64,000 bases of DNA from Neoroseomonas alkaliterrae (lineage in GTDB: Bacteria > Pseudomonadota > Alphaproteobacteria > Acetobacterales > Acetobacteraceae), in NCBI RefSeq assembly GCF_014199195.1, contig NZ_JACIJE010000001.1, forward strand, positions 620,001-684,000, written 5' to 3'. A model generated the notes under the pieces. That model saw only the letters and a list, made by a program, of their open reading frames with translations. It ran no database searches and was not told the DNA's origin. The translations under genes were made by a program, and so were the position numbers. Positions 53,317 through 60,386 of the stretch are shown here, in pieces. Positions within the stretch are counted from its first letter, which is position 1; every line of letters begins with the position of its first letter.

Positions 53317-54330
53317 TCAGGCCCATTCCAGCCGCGCGCGCGCCAGCGCGCCGGTGCCCGGCGTGCCGACCAGCGGGCAGGCGAGCAGGATCGGCAACGC
53401 CTGCACGGCGATCCGCAGCCCCGCCTCGCTGTCCGAGGGGTAGTGCACGCCGATCACCTCGCGCAGCCGCGCCACACGCTCGGCCATGCGCCACAGCGGA
53501 GTGTGGCGGATCCGGCCCTCGACATTGCCCACCGTCCGCACCTTGGTCGTGATGCTGCCCGCGACCTGCGCGATGTCGGCCGCGGTGACGGGCATCTTCG
53601 CGCCACCCTTGCCCTCGCCCCAGGCGATGCCGGGCATGATCTCGGCCAGCACCATCGCGAGCAGATAGGCCTGGGTGGCGTGCCCGCTCGGGTAGGCGGG
53701 GTGGCCGGGCGGGTCGATCGGCGGCATCAGCGCCGGCGCGACGACCGAGGGCCGCGCCCGCCCGTGCAGCCGCTTGTGGTGCATGACGAGGAACTGCCCC
53801 ACCCGCACCGCGGCATGGCAGAGCCGGAAGGTCCAGGGATGCGAGCTCGCCTTGAAGGTGAGCACGCCGCGGAAATAGCCGATGATGTCGTCGCGCTGGA
53901 GCATCGCCTCGGCCATCGCGGCGGCCCGGAATTCCGCGATCTCCATCAGCTCGGCGAGCTCGACGGCGGTCTGCGCCGCGTCCGGCGGCGGCGGGATGGC
54001 GATGCTGGTCCAGGAGGCGGGCACGGTCTGCGTGGCGAACTCCGTCATCACCGCCACGGCGAAATGCGGCGGGCTCCATTCGGCCATGCGGAAGGCAGGC
54101 AGCGGCGGCGGGACGATCCAGCCCTTCATCGCCTGCAGGTCCTGCGGCGGCCAGCGGTTGCCGCGGAACCAGCTCTCGCCGGTCTCCTTGAAGATCTCCG
54201 GCGTGATGCCGATCGGGCGCGCGCTCGAGCGGCTGCGGAAGCCCGCGCTCGAGGAGGAGCTGTCGGAGCTGTCGCTGCTGTCCGACGAATCGGAGCTGTC
54301 GGAGGAATCCGCCGTGCCGATGCCGCTCAT
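53317..54330 (-). CDS. vanadium-dependent haloperoxidase/PAP2-like phosphatase with Ser-Asp repeat
   Basis: A 337-residue protein. After seven residues comes a 21-residue Ser-Ser-Asp repeat, then a helical body with the vanadate/phosphate pocket of the VHPO/PAP2 superfamily: K186-x6-RP (KRLHGRARP), PSGH (214-217) and R290-x5-H296-x3-D300. No signal peptide or obvious TM segments, so it resembles soluble haloperoxidase-like phosphatases. The Shine-Dalgarno is GGAGAGG. It lies 25 bases after the cyclase gene on the same strand, so the two are probably one operon. Confidence 0.82.
   Translation of the reverse strand: MSGIGTADSSDSSDSSDSSDSSDSSSSSAGFRSRSSARPIGITPEIFKETGESWFRGNRWPPQDLQAMKGWIVPPPLPAFRMAEWSPPHFAVAVMTEFATQTVPASWTSIAIPPPPDAAQTAVELAELMEIAEFRAAAMAEAMLQRDDIIGYFRGVLTFKASSHPWTFRLCHAAVRVGQFLVMHHKRLHGRARPSVVAPALMPPIDPPGHPAYPSGHATQAYLLAMVLAEIMPGIAWGEGKGGAKMPVTAADIAQVAGSITTKVRTVGNVEGRIRHTPLWRMAERVARLREVIGVHYPSDSEAGLRIAVQALPILLACPLVGTPGTGALARARLEWA
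54247..54309 (-). repeat. Ser-Asp (SSD) coding repeat
   Basis: Twenty-one codons encode six DSS units plus SSS. Serine uses TCC, TCG and AGC and aspartate uses GAC and GAT in mixed order, so the DNA is not a pure tandem repeat. That favours selection on the peptide over recent slippage. The segment is likely a disordered acidic linker. Confidence 0.8.
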
Positions 54331-54355
54331 GATCCTCTCCCTGTCGTCCTCGATG

Positions 54356-56152
54356 TCACTCGGGCAGCCCGGCCGCGCGCAGGTCCGCCAGCATGCGGGC
54401 GCGGATGGCCGGGTCGCGGTATGGCATGCGCGTCGCGGCATACTCCGCAAGGCTGAATCCGGGCTCGAGGCGCATCAGCCTCGCCGCGGCGTGACCTGCC
54501 TCACTCGCCATGCCGGCGGCCGAGAGCGCGGCGATCATCACCCTCAGGTTCGAGGTGAAGTGCGGCGTCTCGGCATCCGAGAGGCGGCACCAGCGCAGCG
54601 CCTCGGCGAGGTTGCCGTGGCAGTAATGCGCGATGGCGAGCAGGTTGTAGTAGGAGAAGAGATTCTGGTCGAAGGGCGAGAGCCTGAGCCCGTGCTCGGC
54701 GTTGCGGATCGCCTCCTCGGTGCGGCCGACATAGGAGAGCGTGGCGGAGGAGAGCAGCCAGGCCAGCGCGCTGTTCGGGCAGGCCGAGAGCGCGCGCTCG
54801 AAGAACACCAGGGCGGTGTCGTAGTCGTGGAACAGGTAGGACCGGACATGCCCGTGCGTGGCGAGCGCGAGGCTGTTCTGCCGGTCGAGCTCGATGGCCC
54901 GGGCCGAGAGCGCGGCGGCGCGCTCCATGTCGGCGCGCGGCTCGGGCGACCAGCCCTGCCCGACATTGATGCTGTGCCAGCGCGCCGCCCAGGCGACCGG
55001 CAGTGAGAAGCCGGGGTCGTGCGCCATGGCGCGCTCGAACAGCGCCCGCGCCTCGGCGAAGCGGTCGCGTTCGAGATCCTGGATCAGCGCGAGGCCGCGC
55101 AGCGTCAGGTCGTAGGCGGTGAAGCTCTCGGGCCGCTTGCGCATCGCCCGCTGCAGCTCCGCCGCGCGCACATGCGGCGCGACGCCGGCGACGATGCGTT
55201 CCACGATGCGGTCCTGCAGGGTGAAGAGCCCGCCGCCCGTCGCCTCGGCGCGGTCGCCCCACAGGCGCGATCCGGTCTGCGCGTCGGAGAGTTCCACCTG
55301 CACCCGCATCTCGCGCCCGGCGCGCCGCACGCTGCCCGAGACGACGTAGCGCACGCCGAGGGCGCGCGAGACCTCGCGCGGGTCGGCGTCGCGCCCGCGC
55401 CAGGACAGCGTGGAGGAGCGCGCGACCACCATCAGTTCGCGCAGGTTGCCGAGCGAGACGACGATGTCCTCCACCACGCCGTCGGCGAAGTAGTCGTCCT
55501 GCGGGTCGCCGCCGAGGTTGCGGAAGGGCAGCACCGCGAGCGAGGGCAGCGGCGAGACGTCGGGCGGGCTCGGCAGGCGCGCGGGCGGCGTCTCGGGGTC
55601 GAGGATGAAGGCGCGCTCGGGCTCCGGCAGGTGCTTGAGGGTGATCAGGCCGAGGTCGCGCGGCGGGCGCGGGAGGGCGGGACCGAGCGCCTCCACCATC
55701 GCGGCGGAGAGCAGCAGCCCGCCGGCCGGGGCGTGCTCCTGCAGGCGGGCGGCGACATTCACCCCCTGGCCGTAGATGTCGTGCGGGGTCGCCGTCACCT
55801 CGCCCATATGCGCGGCGATCCGCAGCGCGAGCGTGGGGGCCTCGGGATCGGCGGCATCGGCCTCGGCGAGGCGCCGCTGGACCTGCAGGGCCCAGCCGAG
55901 CGCGCCCTGGGGGGTGCGGAACTCGGCAAGCACGCCGTCGCCGGTGGACTTCACGATGCGCCCGCCATGCGATCCGGCCAGCGGACGCAGCACGCCGTCG
56001 AGCACGGCCATCCAGCGGCGGTGCGTCCGCGCCTCCTCGGTGGCCATGAGGATCGTGTAGCCGACCACATCGGCGAAGGCGAAGGCGGCGAAGCGACGTT
56101 CGCCCACATCGCCCTCCGCGTTCATGGCCCAAGCGAGATTGTCGGCGGACAT
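54356..56152 (-). CDS. class III adenylate/guanylate cyclase with TolB-like and TPR regions
   Basis: A 598-residue signalling protein. Residues ~20-175 are a class III cyclase: FADVVGYT with metal Asp28, KSTGDGVLAEF with metal Asp72 and Lys68, then DIYGQGVNVAARLQ with Asn132 and Arg136 for the transition state. So it looks active. Residues ~205-320 resemble the TolB-like domain of CadC-type regulators (LPSLAVLPFRNLGGDPQDDYFADGVVEDIVVSL). The C-terminal ~240 residues are TPR-like helices. No membrane segment. Divergent from the subtilase; a CRP-like palindrome lies 25 bases upstream of its start. Confidence 0.9.
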   Translation of the reverse strand: MSADNLAWAMNAEGDVGERRFAAFAFADVVGYTILMATEEARTHRRWMAVLDGVLRPLAGSHGGRIVKSTGDGVLAEFRTPQGALGWALQVQRRLAEADAADPEAPTLALRIAAHMGEVTATPHDIYGQGVNVAARLQEHAPAGGLLLSAAMVEALGPALPRPPRDLGLITLKHLPEPERAFILDPETPPARLPSPPDVSPLPSLAVLPFRNLGGDPQDDYFADGVVEDIVVSLGNLRELMVVARSSTLSWRGRDADPREVSRALGVRYVVSGSVRRAGREMRVQVELSDAQTGSRLWGDRAEATGGGLFTLQDRIVERIVAGVAPHVRAAELQRAMRKRPESFTAYDLTLRGLALIQDLERDRFAEARALFERAMAHDPGFSLPVAWAARWHSINVGQGWSPEPRADMERAAALSARAIELDRQNSLALATHGHVRSYLFHDYDTALVFFERALSACPNSALAWLLSSATLSYVGRTEEAIRNAEHGLRLSPFDQNLFSYYNLLAIAHYCHGNLAEALRWCRLSDAETPHFTSNLRVMIAALSAAGMASEAGHAAARLMRLEPGFSLAEYAATRMPYRDPAIRARMLADLRAAGLPE

Positions 56153-56176
56153 CGCCCCAGGGTTCCGGCTGCGCGC

Positions 56177-56190
56177 GTGAGTTGTCTCAC
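56177..56190. promoter_or_regulatory. CRP-like palindrome GTGA-N6-TCAC between cyclase and subtilase genes
   Basis: GTGA (56177-56180), GTTGTC, TCAC (56187-56190) is the core of the CRP consensus TGTGA-N6-TCACA. The wider inverted repeat is CGTGAG-TTGT-CTCACG. It is 25 bases before the cyclase start and 66 before the subtilase start. Confidence 0.5.
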
Positions 56191-56255
56191 GGAGATTTCA
56201 CGAAACCTGCGGCAAGTGCAAGGATACGGGTGCAGCACGACCGGAGCGCCGCCGC

Positions 56256-57761
56256 ATGCCAGCAGATCCGCCCCCCGAAAAGCCCGCGCCGCAGCCGGTC
56301 CGCCGCGCCTTCGTGGTGCGCAAGGGGCTGGAGCGCGCCAGCCCCGAGCTGCAGGAGGCCTATGCCAAGGGCGATCTCGGCGCCGTCACGCGGGCGATAG
56401 GGCGGCTCGCGGGCCTCGCCGAGCCCAGGGAGGGGGGGCGGCTGCCTTTTGCGGTCACCCGGCTGCCGCTGCGCGACTGGGGGCTCGACCTCGAGGGCGA
56501 CTTCCCCGAGGAGAAGAAGGCGCTGGCGCAGCCCGCCCCGAGGGATGCCGATGCGGCCTTCGGCATCCTCTGCGACGAGGAGGGCATCGCGCGCCGGCTG
56601 AGCGAGGCGCTGCGCAAGACCTTCGGCACGAGCGAACGCCCCGGCGCGCCCGGCGTGGAGGTGGCCGAGGGGGACATCCCGCTCGGCGCGGCGCTGCACT
56701 GGTGCCCCGGGCGGGGCGAGGGCGAGGATTTCGGCACCGAGCCCGACGCCCACCGGCTGATCCGGGCCGACGCGATCGCCGGGGCGGAGTACGACGGCTC
56801 CGGCGTGAAGGTGGTGATCATCGACCAGGGCGTGAGCGCGTCGCGCCTGCCCCCGGGCACCGCCTTCATGGGCGGGTGGTGGACCCCCGGCCTGCCGCTG
56901 CCGGGCCAGGCCGCGCCGGACAACACCCACGGCACGATGATCGCCCGGCGCGTGCTCGCTCTGGCGCCGCGCGCGATGATCTTCGACTGCCCCATCATCC
57001 CGCCGCGCATCGGCTCGAACCTGCCGACCTTCCTGTCGGACATGTTCGGCCTGATCCTGCGCATGCGCATCGAGATCGGCATCCTCGCCGCGATCAACCC
57101 CGCGCGCTGGCGCGGGCGCTGGGTGCTGGTGAACGCCTGGTCCATCTACGACCCGCGAGGCGAGGCGGTGGAGGGCGAGTATTCGCACAACCGCTACCAC
57201 TGGCTCGCCCTCGCGCTCGACACCATGACGCCCTTCGCCGACATCGTCTTCGCGGCGGGCAATTGCGGCGCATTCTGCCCCGACCGGCGCTGCGCCGAGA
57301 GCGTGATCGGCCCCGGCCGCGGCATCCGCGGCGTGCACCTGCTCGAGGATGTGCTGACGGTCGGCGGCGTGCGGGCGGACGGGATGTGGGTCGGCTATTC
57401 CTCGCAGGGGCCGGGCCGCTTCGGCCACGATCCGCAGCCGCGGCTGAAGCCCGACGTGGCGGCGCCGGCGCAGTTCCGCGTGCTCGACAGCCCGGGGCTG
57501 ATCGCGGGCGGCTCCTCCTCGGCCTGCGGCGTCGCCGCGGGCGTCGTCGCCGCGCTGCGGACGCGATGGAACTCCACCGTCGTCGCGCCGCGGGCGCTGT
57601 TCGACAGGCTGCGCGCGACGGCCTGGCAGCTCGACGGCAGCACCACCTGGTCCGACCGCACTGGCGAAGGGATCCTCGATTGCCGGGCGGTCGTGAAGAG
57701 CCTCGCGCAGACCCACGCCGCGCCGGCCCCGGCCCGCGCGACGGAGGCGCGCGCCGGGTGA
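56256..57761 (+). CDS. subtilisin-like serine protease (S8), cytosolic
   Basis: A 501-residue protease with a complete S8 triad: Asp190 (VVIIDQGV), His225 (NTHGTMIAR) and Ser421 (GGSSSACGVAAG); the oxyanion Asn336 is in FAAGN. A ~180-residue N-terminal region of unknown type precedes the catalytic domain. There is no signal peptide, so it probably works inside the cell. The catalytic domain has a Cys pair (NCGAFCPDRRC). Its stop codon overlaps the CRP-like site of the next gene. It is divergent from the cyclase-TPR gene. Confidence 0.88.
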   Translation: MPADPPPEKPAPQPVRRAFVVRKGLERASPELQEAYAKGDLGAVTRAIGRLAGLAEPREGGRLPFAVTRLPLRDWGLDLEGDFPEEKKALAQPAPRDADAAFGILCDEEGIARRLSEALRKTFGTSERPGAPGVEVAEGDIPLGAALHWCPGRGEGEDFGTEPDAHRLIRADAIAGAEYDGSGVKVVIIDQGVSASRLPPGTAFMGGWWTPGLPLPGQAAPDNTHGTMIARRVLALAPRAMIFDCPIIPPRIGSNLPTFLSDMFGLILRMRIEIGILAAINPARWRGRWVLVNAWSIYDPRGEAVEGEYSHNRYHWLALALDTMTPFADIVFAAGNCGAFCPDRRCAESVIGPGRGIRGVHLLEDVLTVGGVRADGMWVGYSSQGPGRFGHDPQPRLKPDVAAPAQFRVLDSPGLIAGGSSSACGVAAGVVAALRTRWNSTVVAPRALFDRLRATAWQLDGSTTWSDRTGEGILDCRAVVKSLAQTHAAPAPARATEARAG

Positions 57762-57771
57762 TGCGGGTCAC
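57758..57771. promoter_or_regulatory. CRP-like palindrome GTGA-N6-TCAC upstream of the Crp/Fnr gene
   Basis: GTGA (57758-57761), TGCGGG, TCAC (57768-57771) is a second exact copy of the CRP core, 70 bases before the regulator start and overlapping the subtilase stop. It suggests autoregulation. Confidence 0.5.
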
Positions 57772-57840
57772 TCCCTTGGCGCTGCGTCTCGTCGCAGGCT
57801 TCGCCGGAAGGCGCCATCAGGGTGCCGGCGGAGGCTTGCG

Positions 57841-58605
57841 ATGCGTGCGATCCCGGATCCCGTCCATCCGCACCTTGTCTGGCTGCGCCCGGCCATGACC
57901 GAGAACGGACGCGCGCCGTCGCTGACCGACCTGCCCTTCTTCCGCGGCGCCGCCCCGGCCGCGCTGGAGAGGCTCGCCGCCGCAGCGCGCTGGCGGGTGG
58001 TCGAGCCCGGGCAGGTGGTGGTGGACGAGGACGAGCCCTCCACCGACATCTTCTTCGTCGCCGCGGGCGCGGTTCGGGTGCAGCTCCGCGCCGCCTCGGG
58101 GCGGGAGGTGCTGCTCAACGAGTTCGGCGCGGGCGAGTTCTTCGGCGAGCTCTCCGCGATCGACGGCATGCCGCGCGCGGCCAATGTCACGGCGGTGGCG
58201 CGGTCGCGGCTCTGCATCATCCCGGCGCGGGCCTTCCTCGACTTCGTCTTCGCCACGCCCGCGGCCTGCCATGCGCTGCTGCGCACGCTCGCCGCCAAGC
58301 TGCGGCTGCAGACCGAACGCACGCTGGAACGCGAGGCGCTGCCGGTGCGGCTGCGCCTCTTCTCCGAGCTGCTGCGCCTCTCCCGCCCGCGCGCCGGCGC
58401 ACCGGGGGAGCGGGTGGTCTCGCCGCCGCCGCCCCACCACGAGCTCGCGGCGCGCATCGGCGCAAGGCGCGAGGTGGTCTCGCGCGAGTTGTCCGACATG
58501 ACGCGCGAAGGCTGGCTCTCGCGGGACCGCCGCGCCATCCGCATCCTGCGCGCCGACGAGATGCAGCGCGCGGTCGCGGCGGAGCTGCGCGCCCCGGCCG
58601 CCTGA
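57841..58605 (+). CDS. Crp/Fnr family transcriptional regulator
   Basis: A 254-residue regulator. A cyclic-nucleotide-binding domain runs over res ~35-150 with GEFFGELSAIDGMPRAANVTAV, which keeps the Glu and Arg of the phosphate-binding cassette, so cNMP binding is plausible. A long helix and a winged HTH follow (HHELAARIGARREVVSRELSDMTREGWL, ~res 200-228). No Cys of the Fnr iron-sulphur type is seen. ATG 57841 follows GGAGG; an internal ATG at 57895 is possible. Next to a class III cyclase, it is a good candidate for that signal's receptor. Confidence 0.92.
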   Translation: MRAIPDPVHPHLVWLRPAMTENGRAPSLTDLPFFRGAAPAALERLAAAARWRVVEPGQVVVDEDEPSTDIFFVAAGAVRVQLRAASGREVLLNEFGAGEFFGELSAIDGMPRAANVTAVARSRLCIIPARAFLDFVFATPAACHALLRTLAAKLRLQTERTLEREALPVRLRLFSELLRLSRPRAGAPGERVVSPPPPHHELAARIGARREVVSRELSDMTREGWLSRDRRAIRILRADEMQRAVAAELRAPAA

Positions 58606-58659
58606 TCTGGACGCGCATCCCCGCCTGCCGCAGGCTCGCGGCAGGATGGAGGGATGCCG

Positions 58660-59616
58660 ATGAGCAAGCCGCTGCTGCTGCTGTGGACCGACGGGGCCGA
58701 GCCCTATGCGCGCGCGATCGAGGAGGCGGGCCTCGCCGCGCGCCTGCGCGTCGAGACCGTGCCGCGCGCCGTGACGCCGGATGACGCGCTGCTGGCCGAG
58801 GCGGAAGCGCTGCTCTCCTGGGGCCCGCCGCCGGGGATCCTCGCGCGCATGCCGAAGCTGCGCTTCGTGCAGGCGCTGACGGCGGGCGTCGAGCACTGGC
58901 TGTCGCGGCCCGATCTCGCGCCCGATGTCGCGCTGGCCTGCGCGCGCGGCACGCACCGCGTGCAGATGCCGGAGAACATCCTCGGCGCGCTGTTCCACAT
59001 CACCAAGCCCTATGCCGCCATCGCCGCCGACAATGCCGCGCGGCGCTGGACGCGGCGCGTCTCGGCCACGCTCGCGGGCAGCACGCTCGGCATCCTCGGC
59101 CTCGGCGCGATCGGCGCCGAGCTCGCGCGCAAGGCGCAGGCGCTGGAGATGCGGGTGATCGGCACGAAGCGCAGCCCGGGCGCGGTGCCGCATGTCGAGC
59201 GCGTCTTCGCGCCCGCCGAGACCGATGCGGTGCTGGCGGAGAGCGACTTCGTGGTGCTGCTGCTGCCAGCCACGCCGGAGACCGAGAACTTCATCGACGC
59301 CGCGCGGCTGGCGCGGATGAAGAAGTCCGCCTGGCTGCTGAATTTCGGGCGCGGCGCGCTGATCAGGGACGAGGATCTGGTCGCGGCGGTGCGCGCGGGC
59401 ACCATCGCCGGCGCGATCATCGACGTGTTCCGCACCGAGCCGCTGCCCGCCGGGCATCCCTTCTGGGAGGAGGAGAGGATCATGGTGCTGCCGCATATCG
59501 GCGGGCTGCATCCGCAGCGCGATTCCATGGTCGCGGCGCTGCTGGTCGAGAACCTGCGCCGCTTCGTCGAGGGCGCGCCGCTGACCCAGCTCGTGGACCG
59601 GAAGGCGGGCTACTGA
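58660..59616 (+). CDS. D-2-hydroxyacid dehydrogenase family protein
   Basis: A 318-residue NAD(P)-dependent dehydrogenase: GILGLGAIGAELARKAQ (Rossmann), Arg in FGRGALI, Glu in DVFRTEPLP, His in LPHIGG. The ATG at 58660 is used since GGAGGG lies six bases before it; ATG 58654 would sit directly on that site. Overlaps the next SDR gene by one base (TGATG), so the two oxidoreductases work in one operon. Confidence 0.9.
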   Translation: MSKPLLLLWTDGAEPYARAIEEAGLAARLRVETVPRAVTPDDALLAEAEALLSWGPPPGILARMPKLRFVQALTAGVEHWLSRPDLAPDVALACARGTHRVQMPENILGALFHITKPYAAIAADNAARRWTRRVSATLAGSTLGILGLGAIGAELARKAQALEMRVIGTKRSPGAVPHVERVFAPAETDAVLAESDFVVLLLPATPETENFIDAARLARMKKSAWLLNFGRGALIRDEDLVAAVRAGTIAGAIIDVFRTEPLPAGHPFWEEERIMVLPHIGGLHPQRDSMVAALLVENLRRFVEGAPLTQLVDRKAGY

Positions 59617-60386
59617 TGGCCTACAGACCCTTCGACCTGACCGGCAAGGTCGCGCTGGTGACCGGCGGCAATTCCGGCATCGGCCTCGGTATGGCGCGGG
59701 CGCTGGCGGAGGCGGGCGCGGATGTCGCGATCTGGGGCACCAACGCGGCGAAGAACGCCGAGGCCCTGGCGGCGCTCTCGGCCACCGGCGTGCGCGCGCA
59801 TGCCGAGATCTGCGACGTGGGCGATGAGGCCGCTGTGGAGGCGGCCTTCGCCGGCACGCTCGCCACGCTGGGGCGCGTGGATGCCTGCTTCGCCAATGCC
59901 GGCACCTATGGGCGCAAGATGCGCTTCACCGAGCTCGACAGCGCCGAATGGCACCGCGTGACGCGGGTCAACCTGGACGGCGCCTTCCACACGCTGCGCG
60001 CGGCGGCGCGGCACATGGTCGAGCGCGGCGGCGGCGGCGTGCTGGTGGGCACGGCGTCCCTCGCCGCGATCGAGGGCGCCGCGCGCAACGCGCAGTATGC
60101 CGCGACCAAGGGCGCGATGGTGGCGATGATCCGCGCGCTGGCGGTGGAACTCGCACGCCACGGCATCCGCGCGAACGCCGTCCTGCCCGGCTGGATCGAG
60201 ACGGCAATGACCGCCGGCAGCGTGGCCGATGAGCGTTTCGCCGCTGCCGTGCTGCCGCGCATCCCGGCGCGGCGCTGGGGGACCGGGGCGGATTTCGGCG
60301 GGATCGCGGTGTATCTCGCGAGCGACGCCTCGGCCTACCATTCGGGCGATTGCCTCGTGATCGACGGCGGGTATTCGCTGTTCTAG
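59616..60386 (+). CDS. short-chain dehydrogenase/reductase (SDR)
   Basis: A 256-residue classical SDR: TGGNSGIGLGMA, NAG in FANAGTYG, Ser in GTASLAA, YAATKGAM (Tyr and Lys) and PGWIETAM. NAD(P)-dependent oxidation of a secondary alcohol. Translationally coupled to the hydroxyacid dehydrogenase. The substrate is unknown. Confidence 0.9.
   Translation: MAYRPFDLTGKVALVTGGNSGIGLGMARALAEAGADVAIWGTNAAKNAEALAALSATGVRAHAEICDVGDEAAVEAAFAGTLATLGRVDACFANAGTYGRKMRFTELDSAEWHRVTRVNLDGAFHTLRAAARHMVERGGGGVLVGTASLAAIEGAARNAQYAATKGAMVAMIRALAVELARHGIRANAVLPGWIETAMTAGSVADERFAAAVLPRIPARRWGTGADFGGIAVYLASDASAYHSGDCLVIDGGYSLF

Follow-up and report, generated by a model that had tools for sequence, protein, structure and literature searches.

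A recurrent gene unit of a TolB-like–TPR protein and a tripeptide-tailed PAP2 protein in Neoroseomonas alkaliterrae and its relatives

The DNA analysed here (the window) is a stretch of 64,000 nucleotides from Neoroseomonas alkaliterrae (contig NZ_JACIJE010000001.1, positions 620,001 to 684,000), which at 53317-58605 carries genes for a class III nucleotide cyclase fused to TolB-like and TPR regions, a PAP2 protein, an S8 subtilase and a CRP-family regulator. We found that the genes for the cyclase, PAP2 protein and subtilase do recur as a unit, the arrangement of which is not due to chance, and that the PAP2 protein carries an N-terminal tail of tripeptide repeats, which may be something new. 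The CRP gene is part of an older CRP-dehydrogenase block, and the other three genes adjoin this block. A first-pass annotation of this DNA had proposed that all four genes form one signalling unit. This proposal is consistent with an enrichment of CRP-family genes near the core genes elsewhere, but it is not supported at the window locus: in 7 of the 16 genomes with the CRP block, none of the other three genes is at that site.

All four open reading frames (ORFs) are intact, and an ORF check and Pfam scans found them where the first-pass annotation had placed them. The PAP2 gene is likely to start with the ATG at 54330, which is preceded by the ribosome-site-like stretch GGGAGAGG (judged by eye), and 53317-54450 is merely the longest ORF covering this gene. 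With this start, the gap between the stop of the cyclase gene and the start of the PAP2 gene is 25 bases, as had been noted before. The features are as follows.

53317..54330, minus strand: PAP2 (class A acid-phosphatase-like) protein, 337 amino acids; Pfam PAP2 E 6e-7; motif K186 x6 R193-P, S215-G-H217, R290 x5 H296
54256..54309, minus strand: N-terminal tripeptide array (Asp-Ser-Ser)x6 with varied synonymous codons (period-3 test, codon comparisons)
54356..56152, minus strand: class III nucleotide cyclase–TolB-like–TPR protein, 598 amino acids; Pfam Guanylate_cyc 4e-7, TPR_2 2e-8; cyclase domain at about 55589-56104, TolB-like/TPR part at about 54359-55555
56177..56190, no strand: GTGA-N6-TCAC palindrome (predicted CRP-type operator) in the divergent cyclase/subtilase promoter; perfect copy in 0 of 8 orthologous type-A loci
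56256..57761, plus strand: S8 subtilase, 501 amino acids; Pfam S8 7e-9; propeptide-like region at about residues 15-138, low-confidence link, catalytic domain with intact triad
57758..57771, no strand: predicted GTGA-N6-TCAC operator 5' of the CRP gene, kept in 16/16 genomes with this CRP
57841..58605, plus strand: CRP-family regulator; Pfam cNMP_binding 2e-21, HTH_Crp_2 1.5e-13; GEL...PRAA signature from residue 102
58654..60386, plus strand: 2-hydroxyacid dehydrogenase and short-chain dehydrogenase/reductase (SDR) genes, named by resemblance without a family scan; neighbours in the older CRP block and not members of the module

Recurrence of the gene set

In the same-genus set of 59 genomes (own genome included; searches at E 1e-5), 11 genomes gave a match to the subtilase and 22 to the PAP2 protein. 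A PAP2 gene was present within ~4 kb in 14 of the 15 further subtilase places, and the remaining one is a second, weak match in the own genome. The arrangement of the window recurs in eight further same-genus genomes and is rearranged in other lineages. In these nine loci (type A; L031-L038 and the window), the PAP2 and cyclase genes are divergent from the subtilase and CRP genes, the dehydrogenase gene and then, by tblastn, the SDR gene follow CRP, and the left flank is variable. In L039-L041 the subtilase gene is divergent from the cyclase, PAP2 and CRP genes, so that CRP stands at another place (the contig of L041 ends within it), and in L042 the CRP gene is not in the fetched stretch. The PAP2 gene adjoins the subtilase gene in L043 and L044, the latter of which also has a TIR-TolB-TPR gene, and in L046 and L047 a winged helix-TolB-TPR gene lies 5' of PAP2; Pfam confirmed the TIR domain of L044 and the winged helix of L046.

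A wide scan with the PAP2 alignment yielded 128 confirmed stretches and, from these, 79 distinct named loci, of which all 71 that are assigned to a class belong to Alphaproteobacteria. The module genes of the 79 loci were called with profiles built from the first loci. The constant pair of these loci, called the core here, is the TolB-TPR protein, which was found in 75 of them, beside PAP2. Of the other four, three are at the end of a contig or on a very short one, and 4.5 kb from the fourth there is a TIR-TolB-TPR gene. The N-terminal domain of the TolB-TPR protein, hereafter X, was a cyclase in 67 loci, a winged helix in four and a TIR domain in one. The subtilase was present in 43 loci and a CRP-family gene stood beside the core in 19. 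Thus the co-occurrence of cyclase, PAP2 and subtilase in relatives is borne out, and that of CRP as part of the window unit is not. The description of a self-contained cyclic-nucleotide module also fails outside the window locus, because TIR or a winged helix can take the place of the cyclase there.

Of the genomes of the order, 37 of 250 matched the PAP2 profile, and of those of the phylum 31 of 398 (own included), five of the 31 being outside the class. From the 34 places that the phylum draw gave besides the window, the best 20 were fetched, two of which came from outside the class. In all 20 a TolB-TPR match lay close by, weak in three (53-59 bits), and all 20 had a short-repeat tail, which was recognized in 15 by the period-3 test described below and in five by eye (two NK, one SGGA, one GGNWF and one irregular GL/GS). 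It is extremely unlikely that the gene neighbourhood arose by chance or by simple vertical co-inheritance: although the same-genus loci were partly kept vertically, the set recurs in several orders with the gene order rearranged, and the core is present in two loci outside the class. As the first-pass annotation had stated, no such system seems to have been described; a literature search weighted to open-access papers, which included passages of PMC7159879, turned up no description of the gene set or the tail.

Two further observations concern related genes. Another CRP-family gene is present in L141-L144 (in G020, G021, G015 and G010), and ~3-6 kb from it lies a cyclase-TolB-TPR gene of a different kind (33-36% identity); some of their neighbours are shared, and no PAP2 match was found within the fetched stretch. 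On the Bosea plasmid pNBC550 (L179), the sole plasmid match, the PAP2 homologue is apparently split into two overlapping ORFs annotated as hypothetical protein, and no TolB-TPR gene is annotated beside it.

The PAP2 protein and its repetitive tail

The PAP2 protein had been described as resembling both vanadium haloperoxidases and PAP2 proteins. The PAP2 assignment stood, and the haloperoxidase identity was dropped because acid phosphatases match better by both fold and profile. In the profile comparison, the acid phosphatase matched with E 4e-19 and the haloperoxidase with E 3e-9. The AlphaFold model (mean confidence, pLDDT, 88.4) has its nearest fold in the acid phosphatase 7f17/7f18, with a target-normalized TM score (TMt) of 0.76-0.77 in Foldseek. 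Among the 50 Foldseek matches listed, the best E values were 4.5e-6 for acid phosphatases and 8.5e-3 for haloperoxidases, the query-normalized scores (TMq) were 0.50 and at most 0.44, respectively, and the first haloperoxidase ranked 28th; the TMt values of haloperoxidases are not comparable because those chains are longer. Judged from profile and model, the window protein is thus better read as class A acid-phosphatase-like than as a haloperoxidase. No NCBIfam or PADLOC model matched it above the cut-off.

In an alignment of 72 PAP2 rows (the window and 71 of the 79 loci), K186, R193, S215, H217, R290 and H296 are invariant, and P194 and G216 of the motif are kept in at least 90% of rows. The PAP2 fold and the K-R-SGH-R-H motif are common to this protein and the class A non-specific acid phosphatases (PhoN, PhoC, 7f17), but the window protein differs from these in its longer N-terminal region, its tripeptide tail and its recurrent partner gene. 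It also differs in that no signal peptide was apparent by eye (a signal-peptide program was not run), and it is probably cytosolic. With the vanadium haloperoxidases (NapH3, bacterial iodoperoxidase) it shares the vanadate/phosphate-site motif, their matches being at E 3e-9 and weaker.

The tail was defined as a period-3 run of at least 9 residues within the first 80 residues, and was searched for in 80 proteins (79 loci and the window), with PAP2 starts set by script to the first ATG or GTG after the TolB-TPR match where one exists. Such a run was found in 64 of the 80 proteins and a run of at least 12 residues in 55, whereas the other called genes of the same loci gave 1 and 0 of 1030, respectively, and beyond residue 80 of the PAP2 proteins a run occurred in just one of 80. 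Among the 16 proteins without a period-3 run, six have a 4-residue unit and one a 2-residue unit, two are from cut or short contigs, four are tail-less members from Bosea and Microvirga, and three are unclear. The 55 longer arrays use 33 different units, which consist mostly of G, N, S, A, D and T, and the unit changes with the lineage. The unit of the window is DSS, in the array (DSS)6, and in the own genome the three-unit DSS pattern was matched nowhere but at this array. Long period-3 runs outside the PAP2 ORFs were judged to be mostly antisense shadows of the tails, including that of a second called ORF in L060; one called gene, in the duplicate loci L043/L073, bears a period-3 run of its own.

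Since the repeats within a run are perfect by construction, the informative part is the difference between their codons. Codons differed between adjacent units in 616 of 915 comparisons, as against 552 (standard deviation 11.6) when codons were permuted within arrays, and the second set, from the phylum draw, gave 306 of 409 against 275 (standard deviation 7.9). The repeats are thus kept as protein while the DNA is more varied than expected by chance. DNA slippage was rejected as the source of the tail, as only 15 of 298 neighbouring pairs of 9-base units have the same sequence (7 of 135 in the second set). Codons alternated at lag two in the first set (z -3.4) and not in the second (z 0.25), so past 18-base duplications are still possible. 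The near relatives G016 and G028 share 20 of 21 array codons; the codons are inherited between them, so the arrays are not rebuilt often. A parallel change of the unit in every copy, from DSA to DSS, was considered and found only suggestive: 9 of 12 codons are shared against ~6 expected (P 0.047 and 0.056 for two pairs), and the remaining pairs with different units were not significant.

Cyclase, subtilase and the wiring of the CRP regulator

The metal Asp and the Asn/Arg pair reported for the cyclase were found as D28 and D72, and N132 and R136, together with the adenylyl-type pair K68/D125. The cyclase aligns with the solved cyclase 3mr7 through these residues. In 67 rows (the window and 66 of the 67 cyclase loci; L057 was left out as its match was too short), both metal Asp are present in all, the Asn/Arg pair in 65 and the K/D base-selecting pair in 37, the rest having D/R, S/R, R/D, R/E and other pairs. 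For L061, L086 and other cyclases in which the base-selecting pair is changed (D/R, R/E and others) and the metal sites are kept, a change of product is possible. Of the reported fusion, the TPR part is confirmed; 'TolB-like' rests on family resemblance, because Pfam TolB_N scored 12.4 bits (E 0.18), below its gathering cut-off of 22.4. The TolB-like/TPR half resembles that of the HilA/CadC-like winged helix-TPR regulators (32.9 bits to the HilA/EilA NCBIfam model, cut-off 589), which have another N-terminal output where the window protein has a cyclase. TIGR04510, a peptide-modification cyclase, was discarded at 37.9 bits (model cut-off 400).

The subtilase has D190, H225 and S421 and the oxyanion N336, none of which varies in 42 rows, so the protease is intact as reported. 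Its lack of a signal peptide holds on visual inspection (no signal-peptide program was run). The model (pLDDT 86.9) comprises the propeptide-like region, the low-confidence link at 138-157 and the catalytic domain, and best matches unprocessed pro-subtilisin E (TMq 0.49). The subtilisin E precursor (3whi) and mycosins have the same S8 catalytic domain and N-terminal propeptide-like region; the window subtilase differs from them in having no secretion signal apparent by eye and in its gene being divergent to the cyclase. The own genome has a second, diverged S8 protease (L045; G000:C9:51150-52172) with a proline-rich linker and a Cys/Gly-rich end, and no PAP2 match was found within 20 kb of it.

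The cNMP and helix-turn-helix (HTH) domains of the CRP-family protein were confirmed by Pfam. Sixteen of the 59 genomes, own included, encode this CRP (83-91% identity), and in every one of them the dehydrogenase gene adjoins it. In three of the seven CRP genomes without the module genes, the site is empty (L128, L132, L131), that is, a conserved gene of the 711-amino-acid type is directly followed by CRP, and the remaining four have different left flanks. In L139 and L140 the 711-amino-acid-type gene is directly followed by the dehydrogenase gene, without CRP. The site between this flank gene and the dehydrogenase gene (L031-L035, L128, L131, L132, L139, L140) was therefore seen in three states, with nothing, with CRP, or with CRP and the three module genes. 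An rpoB tree of 20 genomes, which left out G030 for lack of a full gene, needs two changes for gain or loss of the three genes beside CRP, with weak branch support.

Across the wide set, CRP-family genes (at least 40 bits; 288 kb near, i.e. within 2 kb of the core, and 815 kb far searched) were found near the core in 19 loci and farther away in two, and all 21 bear the GE...R[STA] cyclic-nucleotide signature. As a check on the bias of a profile made from module CRPs, a threshold of 20 bits was also used and gave 20 near and two far. Seven of the 19 near CRPs belong to one locus type and three to another; after thinning by locus type, which was our judgement, nine near against one far remained (P 4e-5). 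Operators were scored out of 10 against TGTGA-N6-TCACA in the 73 loci with a regulator gene and enough upstream sequence. A score of 9-10 was found upstream of the regulator gene in 8 of the 73 loci and in 3 of 374 control genes (P 4e-5; P 8e-4 with three Bosea loci counted once).

The conserved operator before CRP, present in all 16 genomes with or without the module, suggests that autoregulation through 57758-57771 is probable. The operator at 56177 was rejected as proof of local wiring, because it is perfect in only one of the nine type-A loci, the window. The other eight promoters have 1-2 mismatches; the single mismatch of L032 is equalled by 4.5% of shuffles and two mismatches by more than half. 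Type-A and type-B loci of the Roseomonas group among the 79 score below 8, and the window scores 8.

The first-pass annotation had all four genes act as one signalling unit, here read as a local cAMP circuit, in which the cyclase feeds the adjacent CRP and this controls the subtilase and PAP2 genes. The adenylyl-type pair, the CRP signature, the perfect operator between cyclase and subtilase and the second same-genus locus type with CRP after PAP2 (L039-L041) would fit such a circuit. So would L086, L089, L092 and L093 (Rhodobacterales/Rhizobiaceae type), in which an adjacent CRP goes with an operator scoring 8-9 and makes local wiring plausible there. The module-less CRP blocks, the imperfect operators of the eight orthologous promoters and the occurrence of the second CRP type of the genus without the module (L135-L138) argue against it, and we regard the four-gene circuit as doubtful. 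As the local CRP is an older neighbour, wiring from cyclase to CRP at the window locus is no more than a possibility. A class III cyclase and a signature-bearing CRP-family receptor are also common to the rhizobial cyclase/Clr systems, but the window set is tied to the tailed PAP2 and often to the subtilase, and its cyclase is replaceable by TIR or a winged helix.

A role in antiphage or inter-bacterial conflict, with a swappable cyclase or TIR output and the protease and phosphatase as effectors, would account for the TIR and cyclase alternatives, the presence or absence at a fixed site and the varied base-selecting sites of the cyclases. Pycsar has a cyclase and a cyclic-nucleotide-binding protein in common with the window, but the window CRP bears an HTH and no fused TIR or membrane effector. 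Pycsar was rejected, as the PADLOC PycC match was only 14.6 bits (E 0.003) and the CRP matches to Pycsar effector models were limited to the cNMP region. PADLOC gave no match for PAP2 or S8, the CRP-dehydrogenase neighbours are the same in nine related genomes, and the single plasmid match has a split gene. A conflict system is thus quite improbable.

A sensing core with exchangeable outputs

We consider it an even call whether the gene set is a widespread signalling module, the core of which consists of the X–TolB-like–TPR protein and the PAP2 protein with its repetitive tail, the constant part sensing and X giving the output. Since the N-terminal domain is swapped while TPR and PAP2 are constant, the latter two would be the sensor or input. 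Tails occur whether the output is a cyclase or a winged helix and whether or not S8 is there, so the partner of the tail would most simply be the TPR part, and three-residue periodicity fits an extended helix in a TPR groove. We suppose that the extended tail docks in this groove, and that its occupancy of the groove, or the state of the phosphatase, alters X. In the window, X would make cAMP, which would be read by the CRP-family protein, and the subtilase may process some protein of the module.

Several observations weigh against this module. S8 is missing in 36 of the 79 loci and CRP in 60, and seven of the 16 CRP genomes (G001, G003, G011, G013, G020, G021, G032) lack the other three genes there. 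The K/D pair is missing in 30 of the 67 cyclase rows, so that the product may not be cAMP everywhere, and some module cyclases may make another nucleotide. Tails are rarer without S8 (24 of 36 loci) than with it (39 of 43), and the four Bosea/Microvirga members are tail-less.

The main alternative to docking is that the tail is a self-assembling low-complexity segment (a condensate or fibre); it may also be a substrate of the subtilase. Residues 1-37 of the PAP2 model almost all have pLDDT below 50, as disorder would give, and units such as GGV, GGA and GGF are like elastin, silk or FG repeats; acidic units such as DSS and DGV are atypical of self-assembly. The higher frequency of tails in S8 loci would suit a substrate, but tails in two thirds of S8-less loci would not. 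We find such a role of the tail apart from the TPR part rather unlikely. A more specific form of the docking model, which we put forward tentatively and regard as improbable, is that the tail is a lineage-specific peptide key, its unit perfectly repeated mostly 4-16 times and read by the co-encoded TPR protein. The unit would be swapped whole between lineages to keep signalling private, its codons varied against DNA slippage; cyclase, TIR and winged helix would give different outputs, and altered base-site pairs (D/R for K/D) may give cyclic nucleotides other than cAMP.

The present analysis defines a recurrent signalling unit, mostly of Alphaproteobacteria. Its output differs between loci (cyclic nucleotide, TIR or DNA binding) and its TPR part and PAP2 are constant, which points to an input read by the constant part. 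It is unusual in evolution for a tripeptide tail to be perfect, specific to the lineage and maintained in the protein with codons that differ. Should the TPR part have the tail as its ligand, these loci would provide a natural set of matched peptide-receptor pairs.

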